Shown: in pieces, positions 16,941-35,972 of the stretch
How positions within the stretch are numbered: position 1 is the stretch's first letter
How the letters are laid out: each line of letters begins with the position of its first letter
DNA from: Deltaproteobacteria bacterium
GTDB lineage: Bacteria; Myxococcota_A; Polyangia; Polyangiales; Polyangiaceae
DNA length: 36,432 nucleotides
Assembly (NCBI GenBank): GCA_016209145.1
Contig: JACQWT010000166.1
Coordinates: 1 to 36,432, forward strand
Reading direction: 5' to 3'
Notes under the pieces: generated by a model
Seen by the model: the letters and a program-made list of their open reading frames with translations, nothing else
What the model was told of the DNA's origin: nothing
The model's database searches: none
Translations under genes and position numbers: made by a program

Positions 16941-19496
16941 CTACGGCCCGATCCGCTCCAGTACGAGCACGGGCGCGTCGCGCTCGGCCGAGCGCTCCAG
17001 ATCCACCAGAAGCTCGACCACCCAGTCGTTGAGCTCGCCCGGATCGACCAGGATCTGCCTGATGCGCCAGGAGCGCCGGCCGCTCTGGTCCATGAGCGTG
17101 TGCCCGGTGCCGCGCGCCGCCGGATCGGTGCGGATGCGCTCGTGCTCCTCGTAGTAGGGCGCCAGCGTTTGCGCCAGTCGCTCCGCCGTCCACACGGGGT
17201 CACCGGCCGGCGGCTCCACCAGCGTCGCGGCCTGCTCGTAGTCGCGGCCGGCGAGGGCGCGCACGAGGCGGAAGACGAGGTTGCGCACGGCCACGGTGAA
17301 GGCCGGCACGTCGCTCGTGACATCGCGCCGCCGCTCGGGTGCGGGCGGCTCGGCCGCCCCGGGGGGGCTCGGGACGTAGTCCGGATCGCGCAGCCTCTCC
17401 CATTCGTCGAGCAGGCTGGCGTCGACGCCGCGGACGAGGCCGTGGAAGTAGGCGATCATGTCGTCCACATCGTTCGTGCGTGCCCAGTCCGGCACGTTCT
17501 GGACCAGGGCCTTGTAGACGTCGGTGAGATAGCGCAGAAGCAGCCCCTCGTGGCGCTCCAGGCCGTAGCCCTGGACGTAGCTCGCGAAGTCGGCGTACTG
17601 CTCGTACATCTCCCGGCCGACCCCCTTGGGACGGATGTTGTGCGCGCCGACCCAGGGGTGGCGCCGGGCGAAGTCGTTGAAGGAGTCGTAGATGAAGTCG
17701 CGGTTCGGCTTGGGGTGCTCGATCTTGTCGAGCTCCTCTATCCGCTGCTCGTACTCGACGCCGGCCGCCTTGAGCTCGGCGAGCAACTCGCGCTTGAGCC
17801 GTTCGCGCTGCTTGTAGAGCACCGGCTCGGGATCCTCGAGGATTGCCTCCACCAGGCTAAGGACGTCGAGGCAGTACGCCGGGGCCCGGAGGTCGAGCTC
17901 GCCGAGGGTTTCGACGGCATAGAGCGAGAGCGTGTAGTTTAGCGAGAACTGCGGCTGCAAGTCGGGGTTGACGCGCAGCTCGGTGCCCGGGCCATCGGGC
18001 CTCGGATCGAGCTGCATGATGCCGGCGCGAACCATCGAGCGCAGCATCTGCAGGGCGAGCCGGGCATGCCGGCGCTGGAGCGCGGGCCGGTCGTGAGAAC
18101 GCCTGATGAGATCCTTCATCGCGGCGCAGCCGCCCTCGGGCCGGCCGAGGACGTTGTAGAGCATGGCGTGGCTCACGGCGAAGCGGGACTCGAGCGGCTC
18201 CGGCTCGCCCCCCTTCAACCGCTCGAAGGTGCTGCGGTCCCAGTGCACGTAGCCCCGGGCGGGCGGCTTGTGCTTGACGAGCTTCTTCCTCTTGCCGGGG
18301 TCCTGCCTGGCCTTCGCCTCGAGGCGTAGGTTCTCGATGGCGTGCTCGGGCGCCTGCACCACCACGCTGCCGCGCTCGTCGAAGCCCTTGCGCCCGGCGC
18401 GGCCGCAGATCTGGTGGAACTCCCGGACGGACAGGAGCTTGGTCTTCTCGCCGTCGAACTTGCACAGCCGGGTCAGCACCACCGTGCGGATGGGGATGTT
18501 GACGCCCACGCCCAGGGTGTCGGTGCCCGAGACGACGCGCAGCAGGCCGCGCTGCGCGAGTCTCTCCACCAGCCGGCGGTACTTGGGCAGCATGCCCCCG
18601 TGGTGCACGCCGATGCCGTGGCGCACGAAGCGCACGAGCTCGCGGCCGTAGGGCGTGTCGCAGCGCATGCCGCCCAGCTCCTCGGCGAGAGCGCGCTTCT
18701 GCTCCTTGCTGCACACGTCCACGCTCATCAGGTTCTGTGCTTCCTCGTGGCAGCCGCGCTGGGTGAAGCTGACGACGTAGACGGGCGCGAGGCCTGCTTC
18801 GAGCAGCTCCGGCACCGTCTCGTGCAGGGGCCCCTCCGAGTAGCGGAAGTCGAGCGGTACCGGGCGCTCGCGCGAGCGCACGACGGCCGTGGGCCGGCCG
18901 TTGCGCTCGCTCAATGCCTGCGCGAAGAAGCGCATGTCGCCCAGGGTGGCGCTCATCAGAAGGAAGGTCGCCTGCGGCAGGGTCAAGAGCGGCACCTGCC
19001 AGGCCACGCCTCGCTCCGGGTCGGCGTAGAAGTGGAACTCGTCGAGCACCGCGTAGTCGACCCAGGCCTGCTCGCCTTCGCGCAGCGCAATGTTGGCCAG
19101 CACCTCCGCCGTGCAACAGACGATGCTGGCCTCGCGGTTGACCGTCCCGTCGCCGGTCATGAGCCCGACCGCGTCAGGCCCGAAGGCGGCGCACAGGTCG
19201 AAGAACTTCTCGTTCACGAGCGCCTTGACCGGGCTCGTGTAGAACGAGCGGCGCCCCTCGGCCATGGCCTTGAAGTGCATGGCCAGGGCCACGAGCGACT
19301 TGCCCGAGCCGGTAGGCGTGGCAAGGATGATGTTCTTGCCCGCCAGGAGCTCGAGCAGGGCCTCCTCCTGGGCGGGGTACAGTTCGAGGCCAAGCTCGCT
19401 CGTGTAGTCGAGAAAGCGATCGAAGATCGCGGCGCTGTCGCACTGTCCCGGCGGCGGCAGCCGCGAGCCGAGGGGGGGGGGCAGGGGGGCGCTCAT
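16941..19496 (-). CDS. Ski2-like DEAD/DEAH-box helicase with DUF3516-like C-terminus
   Basis: ATPTGSGKS, DEFHF, MSATL, SGTDTLGVGVNIP, QICGRAGRKGFDERG motifs; long conserved C-terminal region. Confidence 0.88.
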   Translation of the reverse strand: MSAPLPPPLGSRLPPPGQCDSAAIFDRFLDYTSELGLELYPAQEEALLELLAGKNIILATPTGSGKSLVALAMHFKAMAEGRRSFYTSPVKALVNEKFFDLCAAFGPDAVGLMTGDGTVNREASIVCCTAEVLANIALREGEQAWVDYAVLDEFHFYADPERGVAWQVPLLTLPQATFLLMSATLGDMRFFAQALSERNGRPTAVVRSRERPVPLDFRYSEGPLHETVPELLEAGLAPVYVVSFTQRGCHEEAQNLMSVDVCSKEQKRALAEELGGMRCDTPYGRELVRFVRHGIGVHHGGMLPKYRRLVERLAQRGLLRVVSGTDTLGVGVNIPIRTVVLTRLCKFDGEKTKLLSVREFHQICGRAGRKGFDERGSVVVQAPEHAIENLRLEAKARQDPGKRKKLVKHKPPARGYVHWDRSTFERLKGGEPEPLESRFAVSHAMLYNVLGRPEGGCAAMKDLIRRSHDRPALQRRHARLALQMLRSMVRAGIMQLDPRPDGPGTELRVNPDLQPQFSLNYTLSLYAVETLGELDLRAPAYCLDVLSLVEAILEDPEPVLYKQRERLKRELLAELKAAGVEYEQRIEELDKIEHPKPNRDFIYDSFNDFARRHPWVGAHNIRPKGVGREMYEQYADFASYVQGYGLERHEGLLLRYLTDVYKALVQNVPDWARTNDVDDMIAYFHGLVRGVDASLLDEWERLRDPDYVPSPPGAAEPPAPERRRDVTSDVPAFTVAVRNLVFRLVRALAGRDYEQAATLVEPPAGDPVWTAERLAQTLAPYYEEHERIRTDPAARGTGHTLMDQSGRRSWRIRQILVDPGELNDWVVELLVDLERSAERDAPVLVLERIGP

Positions 19497-20645: not shown

Positions 20646-21833
20646 TCAGGGCCAGCGACGAACGAGCTGATCGAGCAACGCGACGAGCCCGCACGCCTCG
20701 ATGTCGTGCCCGAGGGGGAACGGGCCGCCCTCGGGGATCGCGTAGTAGCGCTCCTTGGCGCCCAGATCCTCGCATCCCGACAGAAAGCCGCGGCTCACCT
20801 TGGGCGACAGCGTTCGCTTGATCTCGATGGCGATGCTCTGCCCGCCGGGAGGCTCGAGCACCAGATCGATCTCTGCCTGGGCACCGGTTCGGTAGTAGCT
20901 CGCCGACCACGTGTCTGGCATGCGGGCCAGGATGCTCTCGACGGCGAGCCCTTCCCACGAGCCACCGCACAGCGGGTGGCCAAGCAGCGTCTCCAGATCG
21001 GGGATGTTGGCCAGCCGGTGCAGCAGGCCCGAGTCCCGGACGTAGAGCTTCGGCGACTTGACCAGGCGCTTGGTGCTGTTGCCCGACCAGGCCGGGAGCT
21101 GGCGCACCATGTAGAGATCCGTCAGCACGTCCACGTAGTGGCGCACCGTGGTGCCGGACACGGCGAGGCTGCTCGCGAGCCGGGCCGCGTTGAGCGGATC
21201 TCCCTGCCCGTAGGCGAGCATCGTCCAGAGCCGCCGCGTCCGCTCCGCGGGAAGACGAGGCCCGAGCTGGGGAATGTCGCGCTCGAGGTAGGTCGAGAGG
21301 AAGCTCGTGCGCCACTGCCAGCTCAGCTCCTCGGTCTCGGCCAGGAAGCTGGGCGGCAAGCCGCCCCGCAGCCAGAGCCGGTCGAGCTTCGACGCGCCCT
21401 CGTGTGCGACGATTTCGTCGAGCGAGAGCGGGGAGAGCTCGAGGTAGGTGATCCTGCCGGCCAGCGATTCCGAGGACTGCCGCAGCAGCTCGCGTGAGGC
21501 CGACCCCAGCACGAGGAAGTGGCCGGCGCGCTCACCACTGCGGATGCGCTCGTCGACCAGGGAACGCAGCAGCGGGAAGAGCTCGGGCCTGCGCTGCACC
21601 TCGTCGATGATCGCAAGCTTGTCCTTGTGTCTGCTCAGGTACAGCTCCGCGTGCTCGAGCTTGCTCAGATCCGAGTCACGTTCCAGGTCGAGGTAGAGGC
21701 AGGGCCGATCGAGCTGCTCGGAGAGTGACAGGGCCAGTGTCGTCTTCCCGACCTGTCTTGGACCGAGCAGAGCAACCACGGGGAACGCGCCCAGGGCGGA
21801 TCTGAGCCGGGCATCGAGCCTGCGCGGAATCAT
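20646..21833 (-). CDS. AAA ATPase with DUF4143-like C-terminal domain
   Basis: Walker A GPRQVGKTT, LAIIDEVQRRPELFPLLRSLVD, SGTTVRHYVDVLTDLYMVRQLPAW, and C-terminal AEIDLVLEPPGGQSIAIEIK (nuclease-like fold motif). Confidence 0.9.
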   Translation of the reverse strand: MIPRRLDARLRSALGAFPVVALLGPRQVGKTTLALSLSEQLDRPCLYLDLERDSDLSKLEHAELYLSRHKDKLAIIDEVQRRPELFPLLRSLVDERIRSGERAGHFLVLGSASRELLRQSSESLAGRITYLELSPLSLDEIVAHEGASKLDRLWLRGGLPPSFLAETEELSWQWRTSFLSTYLERDIPQLGPRLPAERTRRLWTMLAYGQGDPLNAARLASSLAVSGTTVRHYVDVLTDLYMVRQLPAWSGNSTKRLVKSPKLYVRDSGLLHRLANIPDLETLLGHPLCGGSWEGLAVESILARMPDTWSASYYRTGAQAEIDLVLEPPGGQSIAIEIKRTLSPKVSRGFLSGCEDLGAKERYYAIPEGGPFPLGHDIEACGLVALLDQLVRRWP

Positions 21834-22147: not shown

Positions 22148-23467
22148 ATGCCCGACACGCGGACCCTGACCTCGTCTGGCAACCGCCCTCGCACGGGGCC
22201 GGCCCGGCGGCAGCTTCCCTGCGAGCTCGGCCGCTACGTGCTGTTCGATCACATCGGGCGCGGCGGCATGGCGGATCTCTACCTGGCGCGCTCCCGGACG
22301 ACCTACGGCGATGCCACCCGCCTGGTGGTCATCAAGGAGGTCATTCCCGAGCTCGCGAGCGACGAGCACTTCGCCACGACGCTGATCTCCGAGGCCAAGC
22401 TCGCCGCGCGGCTTAGCCACCGCAACGTGGTCACGGTCGAGGATCTGGGGCGCGAGGGCGGCGTGCTCTACATCGCCATGGAGTACGTCGAGGGCCTCGA
22501 TCTGCGCGAGCTGCTCCGCTCCTGCACCAAGCGCAAGATCGCGCTGCCCATCGTCTCCTCGCTCTTCGTGCACGCCGAGGTGCTCCAGGCGCTCGAGTAC
22601 GCCCATCACTTCTGCGACGCGGACGGCTCGGAGACGCGCGTCGTCCATCGCGACGTCTCGCCTTCGAACGTGCTCTTGAGCTTCGACGGCGAGGTCAAGC
22701 TGTGCGATTTCGGCATCGCCATCGCGATGACGGCGGATCGGATGACCGCCGAGGTGATCGAGGGCAAGGCCGGGTACATGAGCCCGGAGCAGGCCCGCGG
22801 CGAGCCCATCGATCCGCGCTCCGACATCTTTGCTGCCGGCATCATTCTCTGGGAGCTCCTCAGCGGTCGTCGCCTCTACAAGGCTGCGGGGGGCGAGCCG
22901 CTGCTCGAGGTGGCCAAGCGCGCCGAGATCCCGCCCATCAAGGAGCGCGGGCTGCCGGACGAGAAGCGGCTGCACCAGATCGCGCGCCGGGCGCTGGCGC
23001 GCGATCCCCAGGAACGCTACCAGCGCGCCGGCGAGATGCGGGACGAGCTCAACGAGTACCGCGCCGGGGCCAAGCTCACGACGAGCGCCATCCGCTTCGG
23101 CGAGTGGCTGAGCGAGCACTTCGCCGACGAGAGGGTGCAGGGCCGGCGCTCGCGCGAGCGCGCCTTGGCGGCGCTCGAGCTCGGCCCGCCCGTGGTGATC
23201 GAGCCGCTGCCCCCGTCGCGGCCCGGGGCCTCCGGGCCGGACCCGGACGCCGCGAGCGCACCGTCGGTGGACAGCCGCGCGTCGGGCGGCAGGCCTTCGG
23301 CGCCGAGCAAGGGGCCGGCGGCTTCCCAGCGGCCATCGACCAAGCCCGCGGGCCGGGGCCCGTTCTTGCAGCATCCGCTGGCCGTCCTGTTCGTGTACGC
23401 CCTGGTCGTCGGCGGCGTCTCGTTCGGCATCCTCTGGCTGCTCACGGGCGGGCTCGGCGCGCCGTAG
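22148..23467 (+). CDS. Ser/Thr protein kinase with C-terminal transmembrane helix
   Basis: IGRGGMADLYLAR, VVIKEV, HRDVSPSNVLL, CDFGIA, GYMSPEQARG; C-terminal hydrophobic segment HPLAVLFVYALVVGGVSFGILWLL. Frame opens at 22112. Confidence 0.92.
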   Translation: MPDTRTLTSSGNRPRTGPARRQLPCELGRYVLFDHIGRGGMADLYLARSRTTYGDATRLVVIKEVIPELASDEHFATTLISEAKLAARLSHRNVVTVEDLGREGGVLYIAMEYVEGLDLRELLRSCTKRKIALPIVSSLFVHAEVLQALEYAHHFCDADGSETRVVHRDVSPSNVLLSFDGEVKLCDFGIAIAMTADRMTAEVIEGKAGYMSPEQARGEPIDPRSDIFAAGIILWELLSGRRLYKAAGGEPLLEVAKRAEIPPIKERGLPDEKRLHQIARRALARDPQERYQRAGEMRDELNEYRAGAKLTTSAIRFGEWLSEHFADERVQGRRSRERALAALELGPPVVIEPLPPSRPGASGPDPDAASAPSVDSRASGGRPSAPSKGPAASQRPSTKPAGRGPFLQHPLAVLFVYALVVGGVSFGILWLLTGGLGAP

Positions 23468-23491
23468 CCATCCCCGCGCATTGCTGGCGCC

Positions 23492-25318
23492 ATGCCCTAC
23501 CGGTCCCAACGGCGCAAGGCCAAGGCTGCACCGGCTCCCAGCGCCGGAGCCGTGGCCGACATGGTGCGGCAGTTCGCCGATCCGTACGCGTTCGCGCGCG
23601 AGCTGGTGCAGAACGCCATTGACGCGGGTGCCTCGGCCATCGAGGTGCGCGTGGACCGCGGCCCGGACGGCGTGGCGCGCTTCGCCGTGAGCGACGACGG
23701 CGAGGGTATGGACCGCCCGACGATCGAGGGACCGCTCCTGACGCTGTTCCTCTCCGGCAAGGAAGGCCAGGCGGGCAAGATCGGCAAGTACGGCGTGGGC
23801 TTCGTCTCGGTTCTGGCCATCGCGCCGGACGAGGTGCTGGTCGAGACCTGGCGCGAGGGATCGAGCTTGGTCGTGCGCCTGCGGCCCGACCACAGCTTCG
23901 AGCTCGAGGTCGGGCCCGAGCGGCCCAAGAGCGGTACGGTGGTCACGCTCGTCAAGCACCTGGAGGCCGATGCCTACGCCGAGCACGCCGCGCAGGTGCG
24001 TGTCGCCTTGCGGCGCTGGTGCCGGCACGCGGCCGTGCCGATCCACCTTACGGTGACGAGCGCGCAACGGCCGCTCATTGCCGATAGTCCGCGCGAACGT
24101 GTCAACGACGTGCTGGCCGTGCCCGCGGTGCTGGCCGTGGACGAGGCCGAGGGAGAGGAGCGCTGCGTCGTGGGTCCGAGCGCCGGCTGGGACCTTCGCG
24201 GCGCCCAGCCGGGCGAGTGGGGCGAGATCGAGCTCGGCGAGAGCTTCGCCGGCTTCTACAACCGGGGCCTGACCCTGTTCGAGACGGCGCAGCCGCTCGC
24301 GCCCGAGCTGCGCGGCCTGCGCTTCAAGGTGATGAGCCCGGCGTTGCAGCACACGCTCAGCCGCGACAACGTGCTGCGCGACGAGGCTTTCGCGCGCGTG
24401 TTGCGGCAGGTGCGCGAGCTCGCCACGGGGCGGTTGCGGGCCGAGCTTGCAGCGCAGCTCGCGCGCGCCGCGCGCGACGTGGCCCTCGTCTGGGCGAGCC
24501 TGGAGGCGGCCGAGGTCGGCGCGACCAAGCCCGCTGAACCTCGCGCTGCGCCCGGGCCCGCGGACGCGGCGGCGGCAACGCGCTCTTACGTGGGGCTGCT
24601 TGCCGCGGCCTGTGCCCGGCCGCTCGCCCTGGAGCCGGGCAAGCTCTGCCTGCCGCTGACCGAGCCGATCGCCGACGAGTGGACCACCTCGCTCGGCGAG
24701 CTCGTGCGGCGCGCCTCGCGCGGCGAGCGGCCGCTGTTGGCAGAGCGCGCCGACGAGCTGACCGCCGCCCTCGCCCGCGCCGGCCGGCCGGTCGTGCGGC
24801 TAGTGGACGAGGCGCTGCGCAGCCGCATGGCGTGGAGCGCAGATCCGGGCGGCGAGCCGGTGCTGGCGTGCGACGAGTACGTGCTCGTTCGACCCATCCC
24901 CGAGGCGAGGCTGACCGAGCCGGATCACGTCCTTTGCGAGCTGACGGGGCGCATGCTGCGGGCCGCCGGAGCCAAGCTCGGGTCGGTCGACCTGGCCACC
25001 ACGGCCGGTGCGGCCGTCAAGAGCGGCGCCATCGCCGTGAGCGCAGAGCAGCGGGTTGACCCGGCCGATGACGCACCCCCGGCGTTCGTGTGCACGCGTG
25101 CCGAGACCGCGGGCTTCTGGCGGCGCCTGGGCGCGGCGCGCGACCTGCTGCTGCCCGTGGGCCACGAGGCCGTGCGCCGGGCTCGCGCGCTGGCGCAGTG
25201 GGATGCGCTGACGGCGGGCGCCCTCTTGGCGCGCGCCCTGCTCGTGGCCGAGTTGGGCGCCCTGTCCAAGTCCGTGAGCGATCGATTGGTCGAGGCGGCC
25301 ACCAAGGAGCTGGCGTGA
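23492..25318 (+). CDS. Hsp90-like GHKL ATPase, 608 aa
   Basis: N-box ARELVQNAIDAGAS, G1 VSDDGEGMD, G2 GKIGKYGVGFVS, middle-domain HTLSRDNVLRDEAF motif resembling the Hsp90 LPLNxSRE catalytic-Arg loop. Confidence 0.85.
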   Translation: MPYRSQRRKAKAAPAPSAGAVADMVRQFADPYAFARELVQNAIDAGASAIEVRVDRGPDGVARFAVSDDGEGMDRPTIEGPLLTLFLSGKEGQAGKIGKYGVGFVSVLAIAPDEVLVETWREGSSLVVRLRPDHSFELEVGPERPKSGTVVTLVKHLEADAYAEHAAQVRVALRRWCRHAAVPIHLTVTSAQRPLIADSPRERVNDVLAVPAVLAVDEAEGEERCVVGPSAGWDLRGAQPGEWGEIELGESFAGFYNRGLTLFETAQPLAPELRGLRFKVMSPALQHTLSRDNVLRDEAFARVLRQVRELATGRLRAELAAQLARAARDVALVWASLEAAEVGATKPAEPRAAPGPADAAAATRSYVGLLAAACARPLALEPGKLCLPLTEPIADEWTTSLGELVRRASRGERPLLAERADELTAALARAGRPVVRLVDEALRSRMAWSADPGGEPVLACDEYVLVRPIPEARLTEPDHVLCELTGRMLRAAGAKLGSVDLATTAGAAVKSGAIAVSAEQRVDPADDAPPAFVCTRAETAGFWRRLGAARDLLLPVGHEAVRRARALAQWDALTAGALLARALLVAELGALSKSVSDRLVEAATKELA

Positions 25319-28300
25319 GCGGGCCGACGCAGCCCGTGGGCCAGGTGGTCTCGCGCGGCGTGCTGCGCGTGGATGCGCGCCGCGCCGTGGCCAAGCTGCG
25401 CGAGCATCTGCTCGTCGATCGGCACGACTACCTGTTGGAGGTGGTGCGTTCGGCCGTGGCCGGCGGGGCTACGCGGATCGACGCCCGCTGCGACGCCGAC
25501 GACGTCGAGCTGACCTGGGACGGGACCGCGGCTGCCCCCGGCGCCCTCGTCCACTTGCTCGACCACGTGCTCGGCGCGCCCTCGACCGCAGAAGGGCGAC
25601 GGCTGCGGCTGCTCGCCTCGGGCGTGAACGCGGCGCTGGGGCTCGGTCCGGCGTTCGTCGATCTCTACACGGTGGGTCAGGGCGAGCCGCGCGGGGGCTG
25701 CACGCGGCTGCGCTGGACACCGGCGATGCTCGAGGCCGAGGCCGAGGGCGGGCTGCCCCGGCCCGAGGCGGTCCCGCCGCCCTCGGGCCTGCCGTCGCGG
25801 GGCCTGCGCCTGCACGTGCGCCGCCGCCTTGGCTGGGCCGTCGTGCGCGCTGCCGTTCTGGGCAGCCTGCCCCGGGAGATCGCCGCGCTCGCGGCAGCGA
25901 CGCACGATCTGCCGGTGCCTCTTGCGTTGGGCGGCGAGCCCTTCCCGCGTCCCGCCCGGCCGGCCGCAATCGCCCGCGTGGCCTTCGCGATCGAGGGGGC
26001 CACCCGCGCCGTCCTGGAACTGACCGAGCCCGGCCCGGAGCCGGCCTGGCTCGACGTGGCCGAGCAGGGTGTGCGGCTAGTGCGCTACGCCTGGGAGCCC
26101 CCGTGGGGCTTGGCCTCGCCCTCCGGCGGCGCGGCCCTGCCCGTGCGCGTTCTGTGCGACGCGCCCGAGCTGCCCACCAACGCCTCGCGCTCCGAGATCC
26201 GGGAGGACGCCAGGCTGCTCGCGGAGCTGCGCGAAGGCTCGGCCCGCGCCTTCGAGATGGCCGTGCGCGCTCTGGGCGCCTGGGTGACGGGGGCAGGCGA
26301 GGCCGACGGCCGCGCCGAGCGCCTGAGCGACGACGATGCGACGCTCGACGGCGCGCTCGGGCTCTTCGTGGCCGCGGCGGCGGCCGTGCACCGGCGCCGC
26401 CAGGAATTGGGCGAGCTCGGCCGCTGGCTGCTCGAGTTGCCGCTGTTGCGCGACGGCTGCGGCCGGCCGCGGCCGGCCGGTTCCCTCCTGTCTGCGCCCG
26501 AGCCGCGGGTGTTCTTGTGGCAGGGCCCCGAGCCGATCGATCCCGAGCTCGCGCCGTGGATGCGCGACGTCGTCTGGAAGCAGGGACGGCTGGTCGAGCG
26601 TGCGCTCGGCGGGTCGCGGCTCGCCGATGCGGGCGAGGTCGTGGCGTTGGCTCGCCGCGGCCTGGAGCGCAAGCGTCGCTTTCTCGCGCACCCGGCTGGG
26701 CCGGTGGTGCTGCCGGAAAGCCAAGCCCATCTCGTGCGCGAGCGATTCCGCCTCGAGCACGGCCGCCTCGCCGGCCTGGAGGGAGAGGTCGCCGTGCTCG
26801 ATCCGGCGGCGGCCGCGCGCGGGGCCGAGGCGCGCGTGTTCGTGCAGGGGCGGCAGCTCGCGTGCCTGCCGCTGGAGCCGAGCCTCGTGCCTCTGCCGCT
26901 GGAGATCGCCCTCGCCTGGGAGGGCAAGCTCAGCGTGCGCTTCGGCTTCGACGGGATCGAGGACGACGCGGCCCTGCGCGAGGCCCTGTGGGCCGGGGCG
27001 CAGATCGGCGTGATGGCGGTCGGGCGGCTGGTGGAGAAGATCGAGCAGGGCAAGGACGAGCGCGAGGCAGCGAGGCTGCGCACGGTGCTGCGGGCGGCCG
27101 TGGCCACGGCCTTCGTGTCCCCGCGGGCCTTCGGCCTGGACAGCGACGATGTCGCGGGGCTCGGCGCGGCCCATCCGCTGCGGAGCGTGAAGCTCTGGCG
27201 CACGACGGAGCACGGCCGCTGGGCCAGCCTGCAAGAGCTCGGCGTCTACGCGGCCCGCACCGGCGCGCTGTGCGTCGCCGGGCCACGCGCACGGGGTGGT
27301 GCCCGCGACGGCCGGCCAGTGGTGGCGGCCGATCGGACGGAGCTCGGCCTGCTGCAAGCCGCGCTCGGGGCGAAGGTCCAGCTCGTCCCGTACGAGTGGG
27401 CGCTTCAGGAACGGCCGTCCTGGTGGGACGAGAAGACCAAGGTCGCGTCCGCGGCCCGGGCGATCCAGGACGGCAAGATGCCGGCGTGGGCCGGCGGGGA
27501 GAAGCGGGAGAGGCTCGCCGGCCTGCGCCAGGCGCTCGACAAGAGGCTCGGGTTGCCCGCCGACGAGCCGGGCGACCTGCCGACGCTTCGCCTCGAGGCG
27601 GCGGGCATGCTGGCACTCCTTGCCCCGCGGGCCGCGGGCCTGGCGGAGATCGTCGACCTGCACGCCGGACGCGAGCTGCGCGCGCGGCGCTTCCCGCCGC
27701 GCTTCGGGCCCTGCGTCGCGGTCGTGGACGACGATCGGATCGTGCCGAATGCCGATGGCTCGGGCGTGGTCTGGCGTCCCGCCAGCGGCCTGCTCCCGGA
27801 CTTCCAGCGCGAGCTGCTGGGGGCCATCGTGGCCCACTCGACGGGCGAGGGTGCCGACGCGCGTCTCTCCGGTCTCCCGCCCGCGGGCGCGCGGTCCTCG
27901 CCGCTCTTGCAGAGCTACCTCTTGAGCAGCGCGGCGGCGCTGCGCCGCGCGCGGGAGGGCAAAGCCAATCGGGGGCGCGTCGAGTTGCGTGAGCGGCTCT
28001 GGGCCATGCCGCTGCTGGTGGTGCTGGACGAGCGGGGCGAGCCGGAGACGCTCTCGATCGCACGGGTCGAGGAGCTTCATCCCGCGCCCGCCGAGGTGCC
28101 GGTCGTGGAGCGGCCGGTGGGGCAAGAGGCGCTTGGCTTCGCCACCATGGCGTGGCGCCCCATCGTCGTCTCCAAGGCGGAGCAGTTGGGCGTGCTGCGC
28201 GCCTGCTTCGGCGAGCGGGTGCGCGACGCCTCCGCCGAGATACCCGCGCGCCAGCGGGAGGCGGAGCTCGAGGCGCGCCGCCAGGCGCTGCTCGCGACCG

Positions 28301-31122
28301 AGCCGCTGGATACGAGCGCCGCCGGTCCCTATGCGGCCGAGGGCGCGCTCGTGGCCTGCTGCCGCGACGACGCCACCGGCATGAGCGCGGCCGTGGCGCT
28401 GCCACGGCGGGTGTTCGCGGACGGTCGAGCGCACGTCGAGGTGCTGTACGAGGGGCGCCGCCTGTGCGAGCACTCGCTCGATCCGGGCGGCGAGCTTCCC
28501 GTGGCCGCTCGCGTCAATCTCACCTGGCCGGCGCACGTCTCGGAGTGGCGGTGCCTGAGCGAGGCCGGCCGCGCGGCCGGCCTCGATCTTCTGAAGCGTG
28601 CGGCCATCGACCTTGCCGTCGCGCTCGTGACGCGCGCCCACGGCCTCGGCAACTCCGCCAGGCTGTTCGGCGACCTCGCCGCGCTGCAGCTTGTGCGGGC
28701 CATGCTAGGACGCCGCCCGTTGGCGCTCGGCATCGAGGCTGCCCTACGGCACGCCGAGCTGCTCTGGCCCACGGTGCAGGGGCCTGGTCAGAAGCTCGAC
28801 GCGATCCTCCGGATCGAGCGAGCGCTGTGCTTTGGCGATACCGCCTACGCTTGGGCGCCGCCCGTGCGGCAGCCGAGCCAGCTCGACCAGCCCATCTTGC
28901 ACTTGCCGAGCTCCCCCGAGGGCGAGGCGGCGAAGGCCGTGCTCGCCGCCCGCGACCAGGAGCTGCGCGACGTTTCCGCCGCGGTGGAGAAGCTCCAGCG
29001 CGGCCGCGCGGCAAGACAGGGGCCGGCGGCGCCTCGGCTCCCCGGCGAGCCGCTCCATCCCGCGTTGCGCGCCTCGCTTGCCGACCTCGGGGCAGTGGGC
29101 TGCGAGGGTGAGATCGAGATCGTCGAGGGGCCTGGCTCCGATGTCCGCATGGTGGATCTTGGAGGCAAGGAGCAGGCCGTGGACGGCGCGGCGCCCTGCC
29201 CGCTGCGGGCCGTCGCGCGGATCGAGGCCCTCGCCACGGTCGAGAGCGCTACCCGGGTCGCGGTCGAGATCCGCGCGGCGGCGCAGCGCCACCTCGCGTC
29301 GCTCGGCGATCGGCTTGGCGAGCTCCCGGACTTCGTGCGCGCTCACCTTCGGGAGCAGCTCCTTGCCGGCCTGGCGGCCGGTGGCCCAAGCCCTGACGAA
29401 GCGCGGGCGGCTCTGTTCGAGGACACCGCTGGCCGGCTGCACTCGCTGGACGGGCTGCGCGCCGCCATCGACCAGGGTACGGTCAAGAACTGGTTGTTTA
29501 CCTGGGCGTCGCCGCCCTATCCGGCGCGCGGCTTCGGCAAGGCGATGCTGCGGCTGCGGCAGGAGGATGCCGCCCTGCTGCGCGCCGCGGTGCCGCTCTT
29601 CGACGCCACGCTCACGTTGAAGCGCCAGCTCGAGGCCGAGCGGCGGGCTTCGGCCCCGCCCGTGGATCGGATCGGCATCCCGGCAAAGATCCTGGCCAAG
29701 TGCTTGCAAACCACCAAGCTCGCCGAGCCGGGGCTCGAAGGCGAGGTCGGCTTCCTCGCCCCGGAGCACGCCGGGCTGCGAGAGGCTGCCGTCTTCAAGG
29801 GGCGCCGGCCGCTGTGCACCATGGCCGACGGCGAGGGTTGGCCGCTCGTGGCGGCGGTGGAGGACGACGCGCTCGAGCCGAGCCCATTCTTCGACGGGCC
29901 GCGGGTGAGCGCGCAGGCGCACGCGTTGCGGGAGAAGCTGCGCCGTGCCGTGGACGCCGAGCTCGCCCGCTGGCTCGCGGCGCCCGAGGATGCGGTGGCG
30001 GTCGTGCGCTTCGATGCGAAGGGCCTGGACGTAGCGGGGGTGCACGTGCCGGCGCCGCCCTCCTTGCTGGTCGCCGGCGCGCTGTGGCTGCCGGCGCTCT
30101 GGCCCGAGAGCCCGCTCGTGCGCGTGCGCGGTCTGGGGCGCACCGCGGCCGAGCACCTGCCTCTGTGCGCCGGGAGCGCGCGGCCGGGATGGGAAGCTGC
30201 GCTTCGGCCCGTGCCTATCGAGGGGGACCTGCTGGTCAAGGCGGCCTCGGCGGTGGCGCTCACCCAGCAGGAGCGACTAGGCCAGCTCGGACGCTGGGCG
30301 CTTGACGTGGCGGCGGCGATGCTGAGCGAGCTCGATCCCTCCAGACTGCCGCCCGCCGAGCTCGATGCGTATCGCTGGGACCTGTGGCTGCTCGGCCAGG
30401 GCAGGGGTGCGCCGCCGCGGGCCGAGTGCTGCGATCGGCCGCCGGTCTTGCCCGGCGAGGTGCTCCTGGAGCTGGAGCGCCGCGGCGAGATCTGGTGGAG
30501 CGAGGCGCGGGGCGTGGCCGATGGCGCATTTCCCGACGGGGCCCCGGGCTTCGTGCTGCAGGGCGGCTCGCCCCTGCTGCGCGTGCTGCGCGGCCGCGGC
30601 TATCCCGTGCGCGAGCTCGGCAAGCTGGAGGCCCGGCGCGTGGCCGCGCCTGCCCGCGCCCCCGCCTCCGCGGCGCCGGCCATCGAGCTGGCCGTGCCGG
30701 AGCGGGCCCTCGTCCCGCCCCCCGCTGCCGCTGCGCCGTCCTGGTGGCAGGGCCTGGCAAGCCGCGCCGTTGCGGTGCTGCGCGACGAGCCCGAGGCGCA
30801 GCCCGCCGAAGCCGACGCCCTGCTCCGGGAGCTCCGGTCGGCCGTGGGCCGCCTCGAGCTGACCGGGGACCCGGTGGCCAAGGTCGCCTATGCCAAGGGC
30901 GGCCGCGCCGTCCGCTACGAGCCGAAGGAGCGCCGGCTGGTGCTCGCTCGCAGCCACCCGCTCGTGGCCAGGCTCGCCGCCTCCGAGCCGCTCGATCCGC
31001 GGGCGCTCGCGCTGCTGGTCGCGGCCGCCGTGAGCGAGGTGAACCGCGCGCTCGTCGCCGTCACCGACGACGAGGAGCAGCGCGTGCTGTTGGCGCTGCT
31101 CGGCTCGCGACCGGGAGGGTGA
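25315..31122 (+). CDS. Giant (1935 aa) protein with degenerate GHKL/Hsp90-like N-terminus and repeated modules
   Basis: GTG start overlapping the ATPase stop (GTGA). N-terminal LLEVVRSAVAGGATRIDARCDADDVELTWDGTAAAP parallels FARELVQNAIDAGASAIEVRV...VSDDGEGM; ELPTNASRSEIREDARLL parallels the Hsp90 middle-domain motif; four internal repeats. Confidence 0.8.
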   Translation: MSGPTQPVGQVVSRGVLRVDARRAVAKLREHLLVDRHDYLLEVVRSAVAGGATRIDARCDADDVELTWDGTAAAPGALVHLLDHVLGAPSTAEGRRLRLLASGVNAALGLGPAFVDLYTVGQGEPRGGCTRLRWTPAMLEAEAEGGLPRPEAVPPPSGLPSRGLRLHVRRRLGWAVVRAAVLGSLPREIAALAAATHDLPVPLALGGEPFPRPARPAAIARVAFAIEGATRAVLELTEPGPEPAWLDVAEQGVRLVRYAWEPPWGLASPSGGAALPVRVLCDAPELPTNASRSEIREDARLLAELREGSARAFEMAVRALGAWVTGAGEADGRAERLSDDDATLDGALGLFVAAAAAVHRRRQELGELGRWLLELPLLRDGCGRPRPAGSLLSAPEPRVFLWQGPEPIDPELAPWMRDVVWKQGRLVERALGGSRLADAGEVVALARRGLERKRRFLAHPAGPVVLPESQAHLVRERFRLEHGRLAGLEGEVAVLDPAAAARGAEARVFVQGRQLACLPLEPSLVPLPLEIALAWEGKLSVRFGFDGIEDDAALREALWAGAQIGVMAVGRLVEKIEQGKDEREAARLRTVLRAAVATAFVSPRAFGLDSDDVAGLGAAHPLRSVKLWRTTEHGRWASLQELGVYAARTGALCVAGPRARGGARDGRPVVAADRTELGLLQAALGAKVQLVPYEWALQERPSWWDEKTKVASAARAIQDGKMPAWAGGEKRERLAGLRQALDKRLGLPADEPGDLPTLRLEAAGMLALLAPRAAGLAEIVDLHAGRELRARRFPPRFGPCVAVVDDDRIVPNADGSGVVWRPASGLLPDFQRELLGAIVAHSTGEGADARLSGLPPAGARSSPLLQSYLLSSAAALRRAREGKANRGRVELRERLWAMPLLVVLDERGEPETLSIARVEELHPAPAEVPVVERPVGQEALGFATMAWRPIVVSKAEQLGVLRACFGERVRDASAEIPARQREAELEARRQALLATEPLDTSAAGPYAAEGALVACCRDDATGMSAAVALPRRVFADGRAHVEVLYEGRRLCEHSLDPGGELPVAARVNLTWPAHVSEWRCLSEAGRAAGLDLLKRAAIDLAVALVTRAHGLGNSARLFGDLAALQLVRAMLGRRPLALGIEAALRHAELLWPTVQGPGQKLDAILRIERALCFGDTAYAWAPPVRQPSQLDQPILHLPSSPEGEAAKAVLAARDQELRDVSAAVEKLQRGRAARQGPAAPRLPGEPLHPALRASLADLGAVGCEGEIEIVEGPGSDVRMVDLGGKEQAVDGAAPCPLRAVARIEALATVESATRVAVEIRAAAQRHLASLGDRLGELPDFVRAHLREQLLAGLAAGGPSPDEARAALFEDTAGRLHSLDGLRAAIDQGTVKNWLFTWASPPYPARGFGKAMLRLRQEDAALLRAAVPLFDATLTLKRQLEAERRASAPPVDRIGIPAKILAKCLQTTKLAEPGLEGEVGFLAPEHAGLREAAVFKGRRPLCTMADGEGWPLVAAVEDDALEPSPFFDGPRVSAQAHALREKLRRAVDAELARWLAAPEDAVAVVRFDAKGLDVAGVHVPAPPSLLVAGALWLPALWPESPLVRVRGLGRTAAEHLPLCAGSARPGWEAALRPVPIEGDLLVKAASAVALTQQERLGQLGRWALDVAAAMLSELDPSRLPPAELDAYRWDLWLLGQGRGAPPRAECCDRPPVLPGEVLLELERRGEIWWSEARGVADGAFPDGAPGFVLQGGSPLLRVLRGRGYPVRELGKLEARRVAAPARAPASAAPAIELAVPERALVPPPAAAAPSWWQGLASRAVAVLRDEPEAQPAEADALLRELRSAVGRLELTGDPVAKVAYAKGGRAVRYEPKERRLVLARSHPLVARLAASEPLDPRALALLVAAAVSEVNRALVAVTDDEEQRVLLALLGSRPGG

Positions 31123-31125
31123 GCT

Positions 31126-32685
31126 ATGCTCAGGCCAATGAGCCGCCTCCGATCCTCACGTCCCGCAGGGTCGCGGTTGGCGGCCGCGCTCGCCGCGCTG
31201 CTGCTGGCCGGCGCGGCCGGCTGCGGCGGTGGCGGCGAGCCCGAGCCCGCGCCGGCGCCGGCCGGGCCTCCGGCTTGCACCGGCGATGCCGACTGCGAGC
31301 CGCCGCTCTCGTGCGCCACTGGCGGGGTGCACGAGACGGAGCTGGAGCCGGGCGAGCTGGGCCGCTGCCTCCCCGACGGGCAGATCGTCGGCCGGGGGCC
31401 GCCCACCTGGCCCTGGCAGCCTGGCGGCCGGCCGCTCGCCGAGCGGCTGTGCGTGGTGCAGGGCCTGGACTGGGGCGCTTCGGCCGAGGCCGGCGCGCGC
31501 CGGGCGGTGCAGCGCCAGCTCCTGGAGCAGGCCGGCGTGGCGGTGATTCGCCTCGACCTTCCGTGGGCACAGATCGAGCCCAAGCCGGGCGCCTTCGACT
31601 TCTCCGCCGCGGACCCCATGGTCGATGCCGCTCTGGCCTCGGGGCTCAGCGTGCTCGGCATCCTCGCCTACGGCGTGCCTTGGGCGAGCACCGAGCCGGG
31701 CGCGGACGACAAGTACCCGCCCGACGATCCGGCCGACTACGCCGCCTACGCCCGCAAAGTGGCCGAGCACTTCGCCGGACGGATCCGCGACTACGAGCTG
31801 TGGAACGAGCCCAACGTCGGCTGGCGCTTCTTCAAGCCGCAGCTCAATGGCGACGCGGCCCGCTACGGGAAGCTGCTCGTGGCCGCTTCGGCCTCAGTCC
31901 GCGAGGCGTGCGCGGACTGCCGGCTCTACAGCGCGGGCCTGTCCTTCCACGAGCAGGTGGTCGGCGGCGCGCTCGAGTTCACGCACGATCTGCTTGCGGC
32001 CCACCCCGGCGCGCTGGCGAGCGTCGACGCCTTCGGGCTGCACCCGTACACGCGCTACCCGCCGCAAGCCGGTCCGGAGCAAGACGGCGAGGGCGAGCGA
32101 GCCCTGGGCGCGATGGTGGCAGACGTGCGCGAGGTCCTGGCCCTGCACGGCGCCAGCGCCGGCCTTCCCCTTGCCGCCACCGAGCTCGGCTGGCCGGTGT
32201 ACGAGGCCGTGGGCGAGCCCGAGCAGGCGGCCTTGCTCGCGCGCGAGGTACTGCTTGGCGCTTCTCTCGGGTTGGGTCCGCTGTGCTGGTACAACCTGGT
32301 CGACGGGGAAGCCCACGGCAGCTTCCCGCCCGAGAGCGACTTCGGGCTGTACCGCTACGGCTCGGACGATCCCGCCGGGGCCGCCAGTCCCAAGCCGGCA
32401 CGCGATGCGTTCGCCTGGCTGGCCGCGCTCGGGGATGGCGCCAAGCCGGCAGGGCCGAGCGCCGATGCGGCGCTGCACGATCCCGGCGCCGGCCGGTTCG
32501 CGCTCGACTTCGACGGGCCCCAGGGACGCTGGACCGCGCTGTGGCGCACCGCGGGCCAGGCCGAGGTCACGCTGCGGGGCGAGACACGCGCCGCGCACGA
32601 CCTTTCGGGCAAGGTCGTGGCCACGGCCTCGGGCGGCGCGCTCCACGTGCCGGTTGGCCCGGCGCCGATCTACCTCGTGCCGTAG
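31126..32685 (+). CDS. Lipoprotein with glycoside hydrolase clan-A-like TIM barrel (xylosidase/GH39-like)
   Basis: LLLAGAAGCGGGG lipobox; IRLDLPWAQIEPKPGAFDF; ELWNEPNVGW (acid/base) and LAATELGWPVYE (nucleophile) motifs; start is 3 bp after the giant gene's stop. Confidence 0.8.
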   Translation: MLRPMSRLRSSRPAGSRLAAALAALLLAGAAGCGGGGEPEPAPAPAGPPACTGDADCEPPLSCATGGVHETELEPGELGRCLPDGQIVGRGPPTWPWQPGGRPLAERLCVVQGLDWGASAEAGARRAVQRQLLEQAGVAVIRLDLPWAQIEPKPGAFDFSAADPMVDAALASGLSVLGILAYGVPWASTEPGADDKYPPDDPADYAAYARKVAEHFAGRIRDYELWNEPNVGWRFFKPQLNGDAARYGKLLVAASASVREACADCRLYSAGLSFHEQVVGGALEFTHDLLAAHPGALASVDAFGLHPYTRYPPQAGPEQDGEGERALGAMVADVREVLALHGASAGLPLAATELGWPVYEAVGEPEQAALLAREVLLGASLGLGPLCWYNLVDGEAHGSFPPESDFGLYRYGSDDPAGAASPKPARDAFAWLAALGDGAKPAGPSADAALHDPGAGRFALDFDGPQGRWTALWRTAGQAEVTLRGETRAAHDLSGKVVATASGGALHVPVGPAPIYLVP

Positions 32686-32704: not shown

Positions 32705-34870
32705 TCAGTTCGACGGCGTGTCCGAGCAGTCCCGCACGATCTTGAAGCTCTCGAGGATCGGCGTGGCTTCGTTGTCCTCGGTCGAGAGCTCGAGCTCGAT
32801 CTGGATGTACTTGGCCGGCATCGGCTTGAGCGGTCCGGGCGCGTCAGCCAGCTTTGCCGGGGAGGTTTCCCAGTAGCCGAACCACTCGCCCAGGCTTTTC
32901 GGCTCCTCGCCGCTGCGCGCCCGCAGCCGGATGTTCGTGCCCTCCGGCTCCTGTCCCGACCACTCGACCCAGAGCCAGTTCGTGTACTTGCTGTCGCATC
33001 CCTTGACGAGATAGCGGTAGGTCCCCTGCGGCCGGGTGAAGTTGCGCAGCCCGTAGCCGGTGAAGTCGGAGTACGTGTACGGATTCGTGCCCACGGGGGT
33101 CGAGAAGACGTTCTTGCCGAGATCCACGGGGTCGCCGAGCTTGTCGAGATCGATGCGCTTGGCTGTGGAGGCGTCATGGCTGATGCCCCAGACGTGCCCG
33201 CTGAAGTCGACCCCGACTCCGCGCATGGTCGAGCCCATGTGCACGTCGAGCCGCGTGCCGCCCATGCCCACGGCCGTGGCCCAGGGCTGGTCGCCGTCGG
33301 GGATCTCCTGCGGCACGCGCAGGATGTAGCCGGTGGTGTTCGAGGCCACCCACACCCAGCCGCGCGTGTCGGCGGCGATGCCGGCGGTCTCCTGCACTTT
33401 GCCTTCCTCCACGGTGCGCACCCGCGTCCACTTGCCGTTCGCCAGGGTCTCAAAGGTCGTCCGATCCGGCCGGTAGCGATACACATTGCTGCTGCCCCAG
33501 CCGCCGACCCAGATGTTGCCTTTCGGATCGAGCGTGATGCCGTAGTAGTGGTGCGCGCCCCCGTAGGGCTCGTTGAGCACGGGGCCGACCTTCTTGGTGT
33601 CCGCCGTGTCGAAGTAGCACAGGCCCCGGCCGCCCCAGTCGGGCATGACGGCGCTGTGGGAGCCCACGGTCCAGAGAATGCCGTCGCCGTCGACCGTACA
33701 GCCATAGGGACCGATAGGCGCGGGAAAATCGACGTAGCCCTCGATCTGGCCGGTGCTGCCGTTGAGCTTGTAGAAGCGGTTGTTGCCCGGACGGTTGTTG
33801 GTTCCCACCCAGGCGTTGCCCGGGCCGCCCTCGAAGGGATCCCCCCGGTCGAGGCAGACCGAGCGGCCATACTCGTTCGTCTTGGCGTAGTTGCTCGTGA
33901 ACAGCACGCACTCGTCGTCCATGCCGAGGAACTCCGGCGGCTTGTTGTTCGGGCACAGCGTCGAGCCGTCGTCGACCTTGTTGTCGCCGTTGCAGTCGAG
34001 GTCGATATGGCCGTCGCCGTTTACGTCCGTGGACGTCTGGATGATGCCGTCGCTGTTGCGGTCCACGCAGTCCTCCAGGGCGTTGGCGATCTTCGTGGCC
34101 GAGGGCTGCCCGCCGAAGGCGCGGTTCGCGACCCAGACGTCGAAGTTGTAGTCCACCGCCGTCCGGCTCGGGGCGTTGGTGGCCGTCTGGACGGGGTTGC
34201 CGGCGACGTCGAGGCACTGCTTGAGCTTGTAGGCCGGGTTGCCGAAGCACGTGACGCTGAAGTAGCGGGCCACCTCCGCCACGTTGACCGCGTCGACCTT
34301 GGACACCGTGCCGCGATCGCCGATGTCGTGGGTGTTGGCGATCCAGAGGAAGTTGAAGTTGGAGTTGGTCTGATCGAGCACGAGATCGCCCTTCTCGTTC
34401 AGGCCCACGCCGTCGGTCTCGACGTCCGTCTCCGTCTCCGGCATGGGGAAGGGATCGCTCTCGCCGAGCTCCGCGCTCTTGCAGTCCTCGGAGCAGTTGC
34501 CGCATTCGGTGAGCAGGCCTTCGTCGATCTGACCCTCGCAGTTGTTGTCCTTGCCGTCGCAGATCTCGATGGCGGCAGGGTTGGCGCTGCTGTCGTCGTC
34601 GTCGCAGTCCGGCCCGGCCTTGCAGCCGTCGCCGTAGCCGTCGCCGTCCTTGTCGGTTCCGTCGGGGCAGGGCTCGCCGGGGGAGCCGGCCTCTCCGGTG
34701 CTCGTGCTGCTGCTGGCGCCGCCGCCGCTCGCGGTGCCGCCGCCCGCGCCAGGCGGCGGTGCGGTCGAGCCCTCCTCGCCGCCGCAGCTTGCGGCCACGA
34801 TGCCGCCCAGAAGGCCGGCGCAGACAAGTGCTGCCAGGGGACGAATGACGTCAGAGGATCTTCTGCTCAT
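32705..34870 (-). CDS. Lipoprotein with MopE-like metal-binding motif and beta-propeller (virginiamycin-B-lyase-like) repeats
   Basis: LLGGIVAASCGGEE lipobox; DKDGDGYGDG, EICDGKDNNCEGQIDEG; repeated GxIWVGGWGSSNVYRYRP / GWVWVASNTTGYILRV blades. Confidence 0.82.
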   Translation of the reverse strand: MSRRSSDVIRPLAALVCAGLLGGIVAASCGGEEGSTAPPPGAGGGTASGGGASSSTSTGEAGSPGEPCPDGTDKDGDGYGDGCKAGPDCDDDDSSANPAAIEICDGKDNNCEGQIDEGLLTECGNCSEDCKSAELGESDPFPMPETETDVETDGVGLNEKGDLVLDQTNSNFNFLWIANTHDIGDRGTVSKVDAVNVAEVARYFSVTCFGNPAYKLKQCLDVAGNPVQTATNAPSRTAVDYNFDVWVANRAFGGQPSATKIANALEDCVDRNSDGIIQTSTDVNGDGHIDLDCNGDNKVDDGSTLCPNNKPPEFLGMDDECVLFTSNYAKTNEYGRSVCLDRGDPFEGGPGNAWVGTNNRPGNNRFYKLNGSTGQIEGYVDFPAPIGPYGCTVDGDGILWTVGSHSAVMPDWGGRGLCYFDTADTKKVGPVLNEPYGGAHHYYGITLDPKGNIWVGGWGSSNVYRYRPDRTTFETLANGKWTRVRTVEEGKVQETAGIAADTRGWVWVASNTTGYILRVPQEIPDGDQPWATAVGMGGTRLDVHMGSTMRGVGVDFSGHVWGISHDASTAKRIDLDKLGDPVDLGKNVFSTPVGTNPYTYSDFTGYGLRNFTRPQGTYRYLVKGCDSKYTNWLWVEWSGQEPEGTNIRLRARSGEEPKSLGEWFGYWETSPAKLADAPGPLKPMPAKYIQIELELSTEDNEATPILESFKIVRDCSDTPSN

Positions 34871-34946
34871 GGTCCTTGCTCCCGTAGGGCCGCCGGGACG
34901 TAGCCCGAGGCGATCGGCCGAATGATAGCAGCTTCGGCGGGCGCCG

Positions 34947-35972
34947 CTAGCAGCCCGCGAGCGTCTCGCGAAACGCCAGGACCAGGGCATCGACGGCAGC
35001 GGCGAAGCCCGGGCCCACGACGTCGAGATGCGTCACGAGCCGCAGCCGCCTCGGCCCCGTGGCCCCGACCAGCACGCCGCGGCGGCGGGCCGCCTCCACC
35101 ACGCGCTCGGCCGGCACGTCCACCGCGACGCTCACCATGTTCGTCTCCACCGGTACGACCCGCGCGCCGGCAACCGCGCCGAGGGCCTGCCCGAGCAGGC
35201 GCGCGGCGGCGTGGTCGTCGGCGAGGCGCTCGCGCTGGTGCTCGATGGCGTAGAGCGCGCCGGCCGCCAGGATGCCGGCCTGCCGCATGCCTCCGCCCAG
35301 CATCTTGCGCCAGCGCCGGGCCCGCGCGCGGGTCTCGGCGTCGCTGCACAGGGCGGCGCCCACGGGGGCGCCCAGTCCCTTGGAGAAGCAGACGCCCACG
35401 GTGTCGAACCCGGCGCACAGCTCGCTCACGGGCCGGCCCGTGGCCATGGCGGCGTTCCAGATCCTCGCGCCGTCGAGGTGCGCGGCCAGGCAGCGGCCGT
35501 GGGCCAGCGCCACGACGCCCTCGGCCTGCGCCGGCGGGAAAACGCGGCCGCCACTGCGGTTGTGGGTGTTCTCCACGACGACGAGACGGCTGTGCGGGGC
35601 CCAGTACGCATCGGGACGGATGGCCGCATCGAGCGCGGCGGCGTCGAAGAGCCCGTCCTCGCCCACCTGGGCGAACTGCACGCCGCTCCAGGCCGCGCCG
35701 GCGCCTGACTCGTAGTTGGCGCAGTGCGCGCCGCGGGGCACGATCACCTCGTCCCCGGGCCGGCAGTGGCACAATAGGGCGATCTGGTTGGACATGGTGC
35801 CGCTCGGCACGAACAGGGCCGCGGCCTTGCCCGTGAGCTCGGCCACGCGCTCCTCCAGGCGCCGGACCGTCGGATCCTCGCCGTAGACGTCGTCGCCGAC
35901 CTCGGCGCGCGCCATGGCCTGGCGCATGCCCTCGGTCGGACGGGTCACGGTGTCGGAGCGCAGGTCGAACAT
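34947..35972 (-). CDS. ltaE: Low-specificity L-threonine aldolase
   Basis: [64 protein letters not shown] (PLP Lys) motifs. Confidence 0.92.

Follow-up and report, generated by a model that had tools for sequence, protein, structure and literature searches.

A conserved pair of overlapping genes, encoding an active-type Hsp90 and a giant pseudo-Hsp90 partner, was identified at positions 23492-31122 of the analyzed window (the whole 36,432-nt stretch of DNA). Computation established the homology of the two proteins, their architecture, the contrast between their ATP sites (73/73 versus 0/40 family members) and a conserved, overlapping and co-inherited gene order. On balance, the pair is probably a two-subunit Hsp90, an asymmetric heterodimer: ATP would be spent by one arm, and the other would act as a long, non-hydrolysing client scaffold.

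Four ORFs are located on the + strand between 22148 and 32685, exactly at the positions and with the spacings given by the original prediction (24 nt between kinase and ATPase, a 4-nt GTGA overlap between ATPase and giant, and 3 nt between giant and glycosidase):

22148-23467, + strand: Ser/Thr kinase, membrane-anchored (Pkinase, 7e-39); a local neighbour outside the conserved unit
23492-25318, + strand: catalytic subunit, a 608-aa full-length Hsp90 paralogue with N, middle and C domains (AF2 model, Foldseek, profile)
25315-25318, + strand: GTGA, where the start of the giant overlaps the ATPase stop by 4 nt (read from sequence; the junction recurs in relatives)
25315-31122, + strand: giant partner, a 1935-aa pseudo-Hsp90 (hhalign, Foldseek)
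31126-32685, + strand: putative lipoprotein with the glycosidase-like TIM-barrel motifs LWNEPN and ATELGW; a local neighbour outside the conserved unit

The run is flanked by genes on the opposite strand (20646-21833 and 32705-34990), so the four ORFs form a closed directon, and with a third-position GC of 0.89-0.93 they resemble real genes in this high-GC genome. The kinase motifs noticed earlier (GRGGMADLYLA, HRDVSPSN and DFGIA) were found, and the protein carries a C-terminal membrane segment besides its normal Pkinase domain. The two motifs of the lipoprotein-like glycosidase contain Glu residues typical of clan GH-A, as read from the sequence, and its Pfam matches to GH42/GH10 are sub-threshold.

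The original prediction treated all four genes as one cassette. A module in which the membrane kinase regulates the Hsp90 pair and the pair serves the surface glycosidase would fit the closed directon with its gaps of 24, -4 and 3 nt. It would also fit a kinase gene 35 nt upstream of the pair at another locus (L128), a partner with an N-terminal FHA domain (L080) and two kinase-like genes downstream of an Elusimicrobia locus (L102). However, the gene upstream of the pair varies at nearly every locus, L128 is the one other locus of about 90 with a kinase directly upstream, no glycosidase homologue was found near any of 94 pair loci, and such kinases are abundant in myxobacterial genomes. We regard this reading as highly improbable, and the four-gene cassette was rejected as a conserved unit. 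The proposed check of neighbourhood conservation thus came out positive for the ATPase/giant pair and negative for the kinase. Since neither kinase nor glycosidase is retained beside the pair, the conserved unit is the two-gene pair. The FHA domain of the L080 partner (L080:11715-12380; Pfam 28.7 bits, cut-off 20.7) is a possible link to phosphothreonine signalling.

The domains and key residues of the 608-aa ATPase are located as follows:

23549-24061, + strand: Hsp90 N (ATP-binding) domain, residues 20-190, identified by its conserved key residues
23600-23602, 23612-23614 and 23693-23695, + strand: N-domain residues E37, N41 and D68, respectively, accompanied by G98/G101/G103
24074-24931, + strand: Hsp90 middle domain, residues 195-480 (conservation of R291, secondary structure of the model)
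24362-24364, + strand: Arg291 in HTLSRD, at the site of the catalytic Hsp90 arginine
24932-25315, + strand: Hsp90 C (dimerisation-type) domain, residues 481-608 (alignment up to HtpG residue 609)

The AF2 model of this protein (pLDDT 90.5, pTM 0.88) includes terminal helices at 559-607 in the C domain. It matches HtpG, TRAP1 and eukaryotic Hsp90 over its whole length by Foldseek (7e-23, about 700 columns), with a large rmsd that probably reflects a differing domain orientation. A profile built from 73 ATPase relatives aligns with HtpG residues 10-609 (4.3e-18). The intact Bergerat motifs reported earlier are borne out by a match to HATPase_c_3 (2.8e-12), and E37, N41 and D68 correspond in position to the catalytic Glu, the Mg-binding Asn and the adenine-binding Asp. 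E37, N41, D68, G70, G72, G98, G101 and G103 are present in 73/73 relatives, as is the middle-domain R291; among loci from the GTDB scan, E37, N41 and the glycines owe their conservation partly to selection, because the scan patterns (AFxRELVQN and [KA]IG[KR][YF]G[VI]GF) contain them, and D68, R291 and the relatives found through plain homology are free of this bias. The Bergerat N domain, the middle domain with its Arg and the C-terminal domain that characterize the Hsp90 family are all found in the 608-aa protein, which is predicted to be an active Hsp90 ATPase.

Likeness to HtpG/TRAP1 extends over the N, middle and C domains and includes the catalytic Glu, Asn, Asp, glycine motif and middle Arg, but the identity is about 15% and the score is 38 bits, compared with 674 for the true HtpG of this genome. 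HtpG also differs in forming a homodimer, and it is not known to be encoded together with a pseudo-Hsp90 partner. Against the NCBIfam HtpG model (NF003555) the protein scores 38.1 bits, below the cut-off of 371, and against the HSP90-family model PRK14083 it scores 38 bits (cut-off 455). Its best NCBIfam domain match is the sacsin ATP-binding domain, at 48.4 bits, just below the cut-off of 50. The genome encodes a separate canonical HtpG (674 bits, cut-off 371), so the 608-aa protein is a second Hsp90.

The features of the giant partner are as follows:

25315-25929, + strand: degenerate Hsp90 N domain, residues 1-205 (hhalign to the ATPase N domain 98.2%, 4.5e-14)
25438-25440, + strand: E42 of the N domain, kept; further on in the same domain, S46 replaces the Asn and W68 replaces the Asp
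25930-26724, + strand: R0, middle-domain unit, residues 206-470, with TNASRS at 288-293 (ATPase middle domain 87.6%)
26725-27579, + strand: R1, middle-domain-like unit, residues 471-755 (ATPase middle domain 93.3%; R4 98.2%)
27580-28344, + strand: R2, middle-domain-like unit, residues 756-1010 (ATPase middle domain 86.9%; R1 95.7%)
28345-29079, + strand: R3, middle-domain-like unit, residues 1011-1255 (R1 96.1%; R4 97.1%; ATPase middle domain 57.9%)
29080-29709, + strand: R4, middle-domain-like unit, residues 1256-1465 (R1 98.2%; ATPase middle domain 54.1%)
29710-30474, + strand: R5, partial middle-domain-like unit, residues 1466-1720 (about 95 residues matched; R1 95.9%, R2 90.8%)
30712-31119, + strand: C-terminal region, residues 1800-1935, Hsp90 C-domain-like (hhalign 86.2-90.4%, 38-44 columns)

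The giant has no match in Pfam, NCBIfam or PADLOC, in keeping with the earlier remark that no ordinary enzyme motif could be recognized. No match was found either in a PDB sequence search with a 12-sequence giant profile (up to E 1) or in a single-sequence scan of a collection of genome contigs, and its Hsp90 kinship is visible only through fold and profile-profile comparison. By hhalign, residues 1-430 match the ATPase family at 98.9% (1.6e-17); on this comparison, the stretch is paralogous to the N and middle domains of the ATPase. The structure model of residues 1-1130 (pLDDT 89.3, pTM 0.58) has a TRAP1-like fold (Foldseek, 1.2e-14), and the sole match of the giant-family profile in the host genome, besides the giant itself, is the middle domain of the canonical HtpG (1.1e-5). 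Hsp90 N and middle folds are therefore both found in the giant, and the ATP-binding residues are not. Across its family, 40/40 sequences retain the catalytic Glu and 34/40 the middle-domain Arg, whereas the Mg-binding Asn occurs in 0/40 (Ala, Ser, Gly or other residues in 40/40) and the adenine-binding Asp in 0/40 (Phe, Trp or Ala in 40/40). With the latter two residues lost in 40/40, the giant is very likely a pseudo-ATPase.

The giant-family alignment (39 sequences) was cut into segments, which were compared all-versus-all with each other and with the ATPase domains by hhalign. Six consecutive segments of about 210-290 residues each (R0-R5) match one another at 48-98%, and the scores of R0-R4 against the ATPase middle domain are 54-93%; control pairs of no expected kinship reached at most 8.3%. 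R5 is the weakest unit, at 11% against the ATPase middle domain directly. The repetition is also seen in the modelled residues 1-1130, where groups of beta strands recur at 218-283, 472-534, 757-806 and 1014-1069, and R1 is composed of a beta-sheet, helices and a small alpha/beta part. The N segment of the giant matches the ATPase N domain alone (98.2%), and the C segment matches the ATPase C domain alone (86.2%). When the whole C-terminal profile was compared with the whole ATPase profile, the match was weaker (55.5%, 1.2e-4, 104 columns), so the C-terminal region is graded as likely an Hsp90 C domain, with a short match, rather than as settled. The degenerate-Hsp90 partner proposed in the original prediction is thereby upheld, but the proposal had overlooked that the derivation from Hsp90 runs throughout the protein, from the pseudo-N domain through about six middle units to the C-terminal match.

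The association of the two genes is conserved well beyond the window. Homology search among 59 related genomes retrieved 14 close homologues of the 608-aa protein. A giant homologue is the next gene at all 13 loci with a long enough contig in these order-level relatives; its overlap with the ATPase gene is 4 nt at 12 of them and 1 nt at the other. A profile scan of GTDB genomes returned 318 ATPase relatives, from which 80 loci were kept. Searching from the ATPase towards the partner, we found a partner adjacent in 67 of the 75 assessable GTDB cases, a figure made up of 60 counted automatically and seven added (L079, L080, L102, L114, L121, L129 and L130) whose partners had been missed because of an upstream position, an N-terminal extension, a distance of 0.7 kb or a weak match. 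The 4-nt overlap is the commonest junction (38 of the 60 automatically counted pairs). Homologues of the two genes do not, then, occur mostly apart, and the Hsp90-like ATPase with a dedicated giant partner, as first proposed, is a widely conserved pair.

In a joint tree, the ATPases form one clade and the partners another, each with support of 1.0. Distances within the two families correlate with r 0.91 (permutation maximum 0.17), a value to which shared species history adds. Such mirrored trees fit inheritance as a pair after one ancient duplication. Partner length ranges from 584 to about 1930 aa. The short partners of 584-630 aa (L121 and L130) are about the size of Hsp90, and their profile matches the ATPase N and middle domains at 99% (3.4e-18). 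Given that Hsp90-sized partners exist, the giant form looks like an Hsp90 expanded through repetition. The data narrowly favour a history in which the duplicated subunit lost its ATPase and grew by middle-domain repetition, giving an asymmetric giant clamp that operates in addition to HtpG, both across Myxococcota and in some Elusimicrobiota. At one locus (L116:11569-19238), a single ATPase gene is followed by two tandem pseudo-Hsp90 partners of 1372 and 1194 aa.

No partner was found at 8 of the 75 ATPase loci (L095, L117, L105, L107, L108 and the Eremiobacterota loci L103, L118 and L122), so that a partner is probably dispensable for the catalytic subunit, which may then act as a homodimer. 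These partner-less relatives, the variable partner length and the two partners beside one ATPase in L116 would also be consistent with an ATPase that forms an ordinary homodimeric Hsp90 and a giant that is its dedicated client, co-chaperone or holdase, bound transiently outside the clamp. We consider this rather unlikely. The giant is itself an Hsp90 paralogue with N, middle and apparently C domains, derived from one ancient duplication, and a fold that is kept although its ATP residues have gone typically marks the pseudo-enzyme half of a heteromer.

Hsp90 monomers are joined at their C domains, their N domains are closed by ATP, and clients are contacted largely on the middle domain. Since one subunit of the present pair has an intact ATP site and in the other the same domain order is kept but the site is dead and the middle domains are multiplied, we infer an asymmetric heterodimer. 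Under this two-subunit model, the gene overlap may couple translation and co-assembly of the ATPase and the giant, and the two proteins would pair at their C domains in the manner of Hsp90 monomers. With a single arm hydrolysing ATP, the clamp would open and close asymmetrically, and the multiplied middle domains would make the giant arm a long, non-hydrolysing scaffold for clients. The complex would likely chaperone large or multidomain clients alongside the ordinary HtpG. In an Hsp90 homodimer it is hard to tell apart what each ATP site and each arm contributes. If the model is true, direct tests of asymmetry and client loading would become feasible in a natural pair, one arm of which is incapable of canonical ATP binding and has several middle domains. 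Bacteria would also gain a second Hsp90 system, so far unstudied, with Sorangium, Polyangium and Nannocystis among its culturable carriers. Symmetry breaking in Hsp90 is a live question for TRAP1 (PMC5550277).

Ancient bacterial Hsp90 paralogues have been described (excerpts of PMC1525184; PMC3708813). Excerpted text of Chen et al. 2006 (PMC1525184) distinguishes an HSP90-like outgroup and HTPG groups A, B and C, and mentions divergent, longer Hsp90-like proteins such as one of 982 aa in Methanosarcina; paired active and inactive subunits and repeated middle domains are not described in that text. Sacsin is a giant protein built from Hsp90-like units, the SRR/SIRPT repeats, with N (sr1) and middle-like (sr2) parts (PMC3629688). 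It differs from the present pair in having three ATP-binding units together with UbL and DnaJ domains in one chain. The giant described here has one dead N domain followed by middle repeats, with the active ATPase encoded as a subunit of its own; UbL, DnaJ or HEPN domains were not detected in the giant by Pfam. In the open-access literature and family libraries, no account of an Hsp90 made of an active and an inactive partner, or of Hsp90 middle domains in tandem, was found.

A function in anti-phage or inter-bacterial conflict was also considered. Patchy distribution would agree with it: the ATPase family occurs in 28 of 141 Myxococcota genomes at E<=1e-20 and in up to 8 copies per genome (matches at eight places in G111 and five in G146). 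The ATPase also weakly matches PADLOC TmtA, a group of large proteins that carry a GHKL-type domain at the N-terminus. These matches, however, are confined to about 80 ATPase residues of the GHKL core (best 1e-11), the giant partner matches nothing, and no full-length match to a PADLOC anti-phage component was found for either. Moreover, the giant has no match in phage collections and the ATPase none in plasmid collections, and no recurrent nuclease or toxin neighbour was seen; in distant phyla, the genes that do recur nearby encode GroES and an AAA ATPase. The defence or surface-protein role offered in the original prediction finds no support here, and a conflict function, although possible, is improbable.

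The partner-less ATPase relatives in three loci are preceded, at a distance of 14 nt, by a gene for a GroES-type co-chaperonin (L105:9564-9950, L107:6535-6921 and L108:9564-9950). In Elusimicrobiota and Eremiobacterota, a conserved run of genes encodes a coiled-coil protein, a 330-aa protein and an AAA ATPase, followed by the Hsp90-like ATPase (L102:6347-10026, L124:5935-10008 and L103:6171-9975, also in L118 and L122). The AAA and 330-aa neighbour families of Elusimicrobia were not found in the genome of the window. The GroES and AAA ATPase neighbours lend slight weight to a chaperone reading. The Eremiobacterota locus L103 also contains a single frame with an MreB domain followed by an MreC domain (L103:13182-15035), an apparent fusion of cell-shape proteins, and similar ORFs cluster in L118 and L122.

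Elsewhere in the window, a full-length peptidase of family M2 (angiotensin-converting-enzyme type, 2.4e-217) is encoded by this bacterial host at 12788-14770 on the + strand. A DEAD-box helicase carrying a DUF3516 domain is encoded at 16941-19496 on the - strand. The gene at 32705-34990 on the - strand, which borders the directon, combines a MopE-type metal-binding motif and beta-propeller repeats in one protein.
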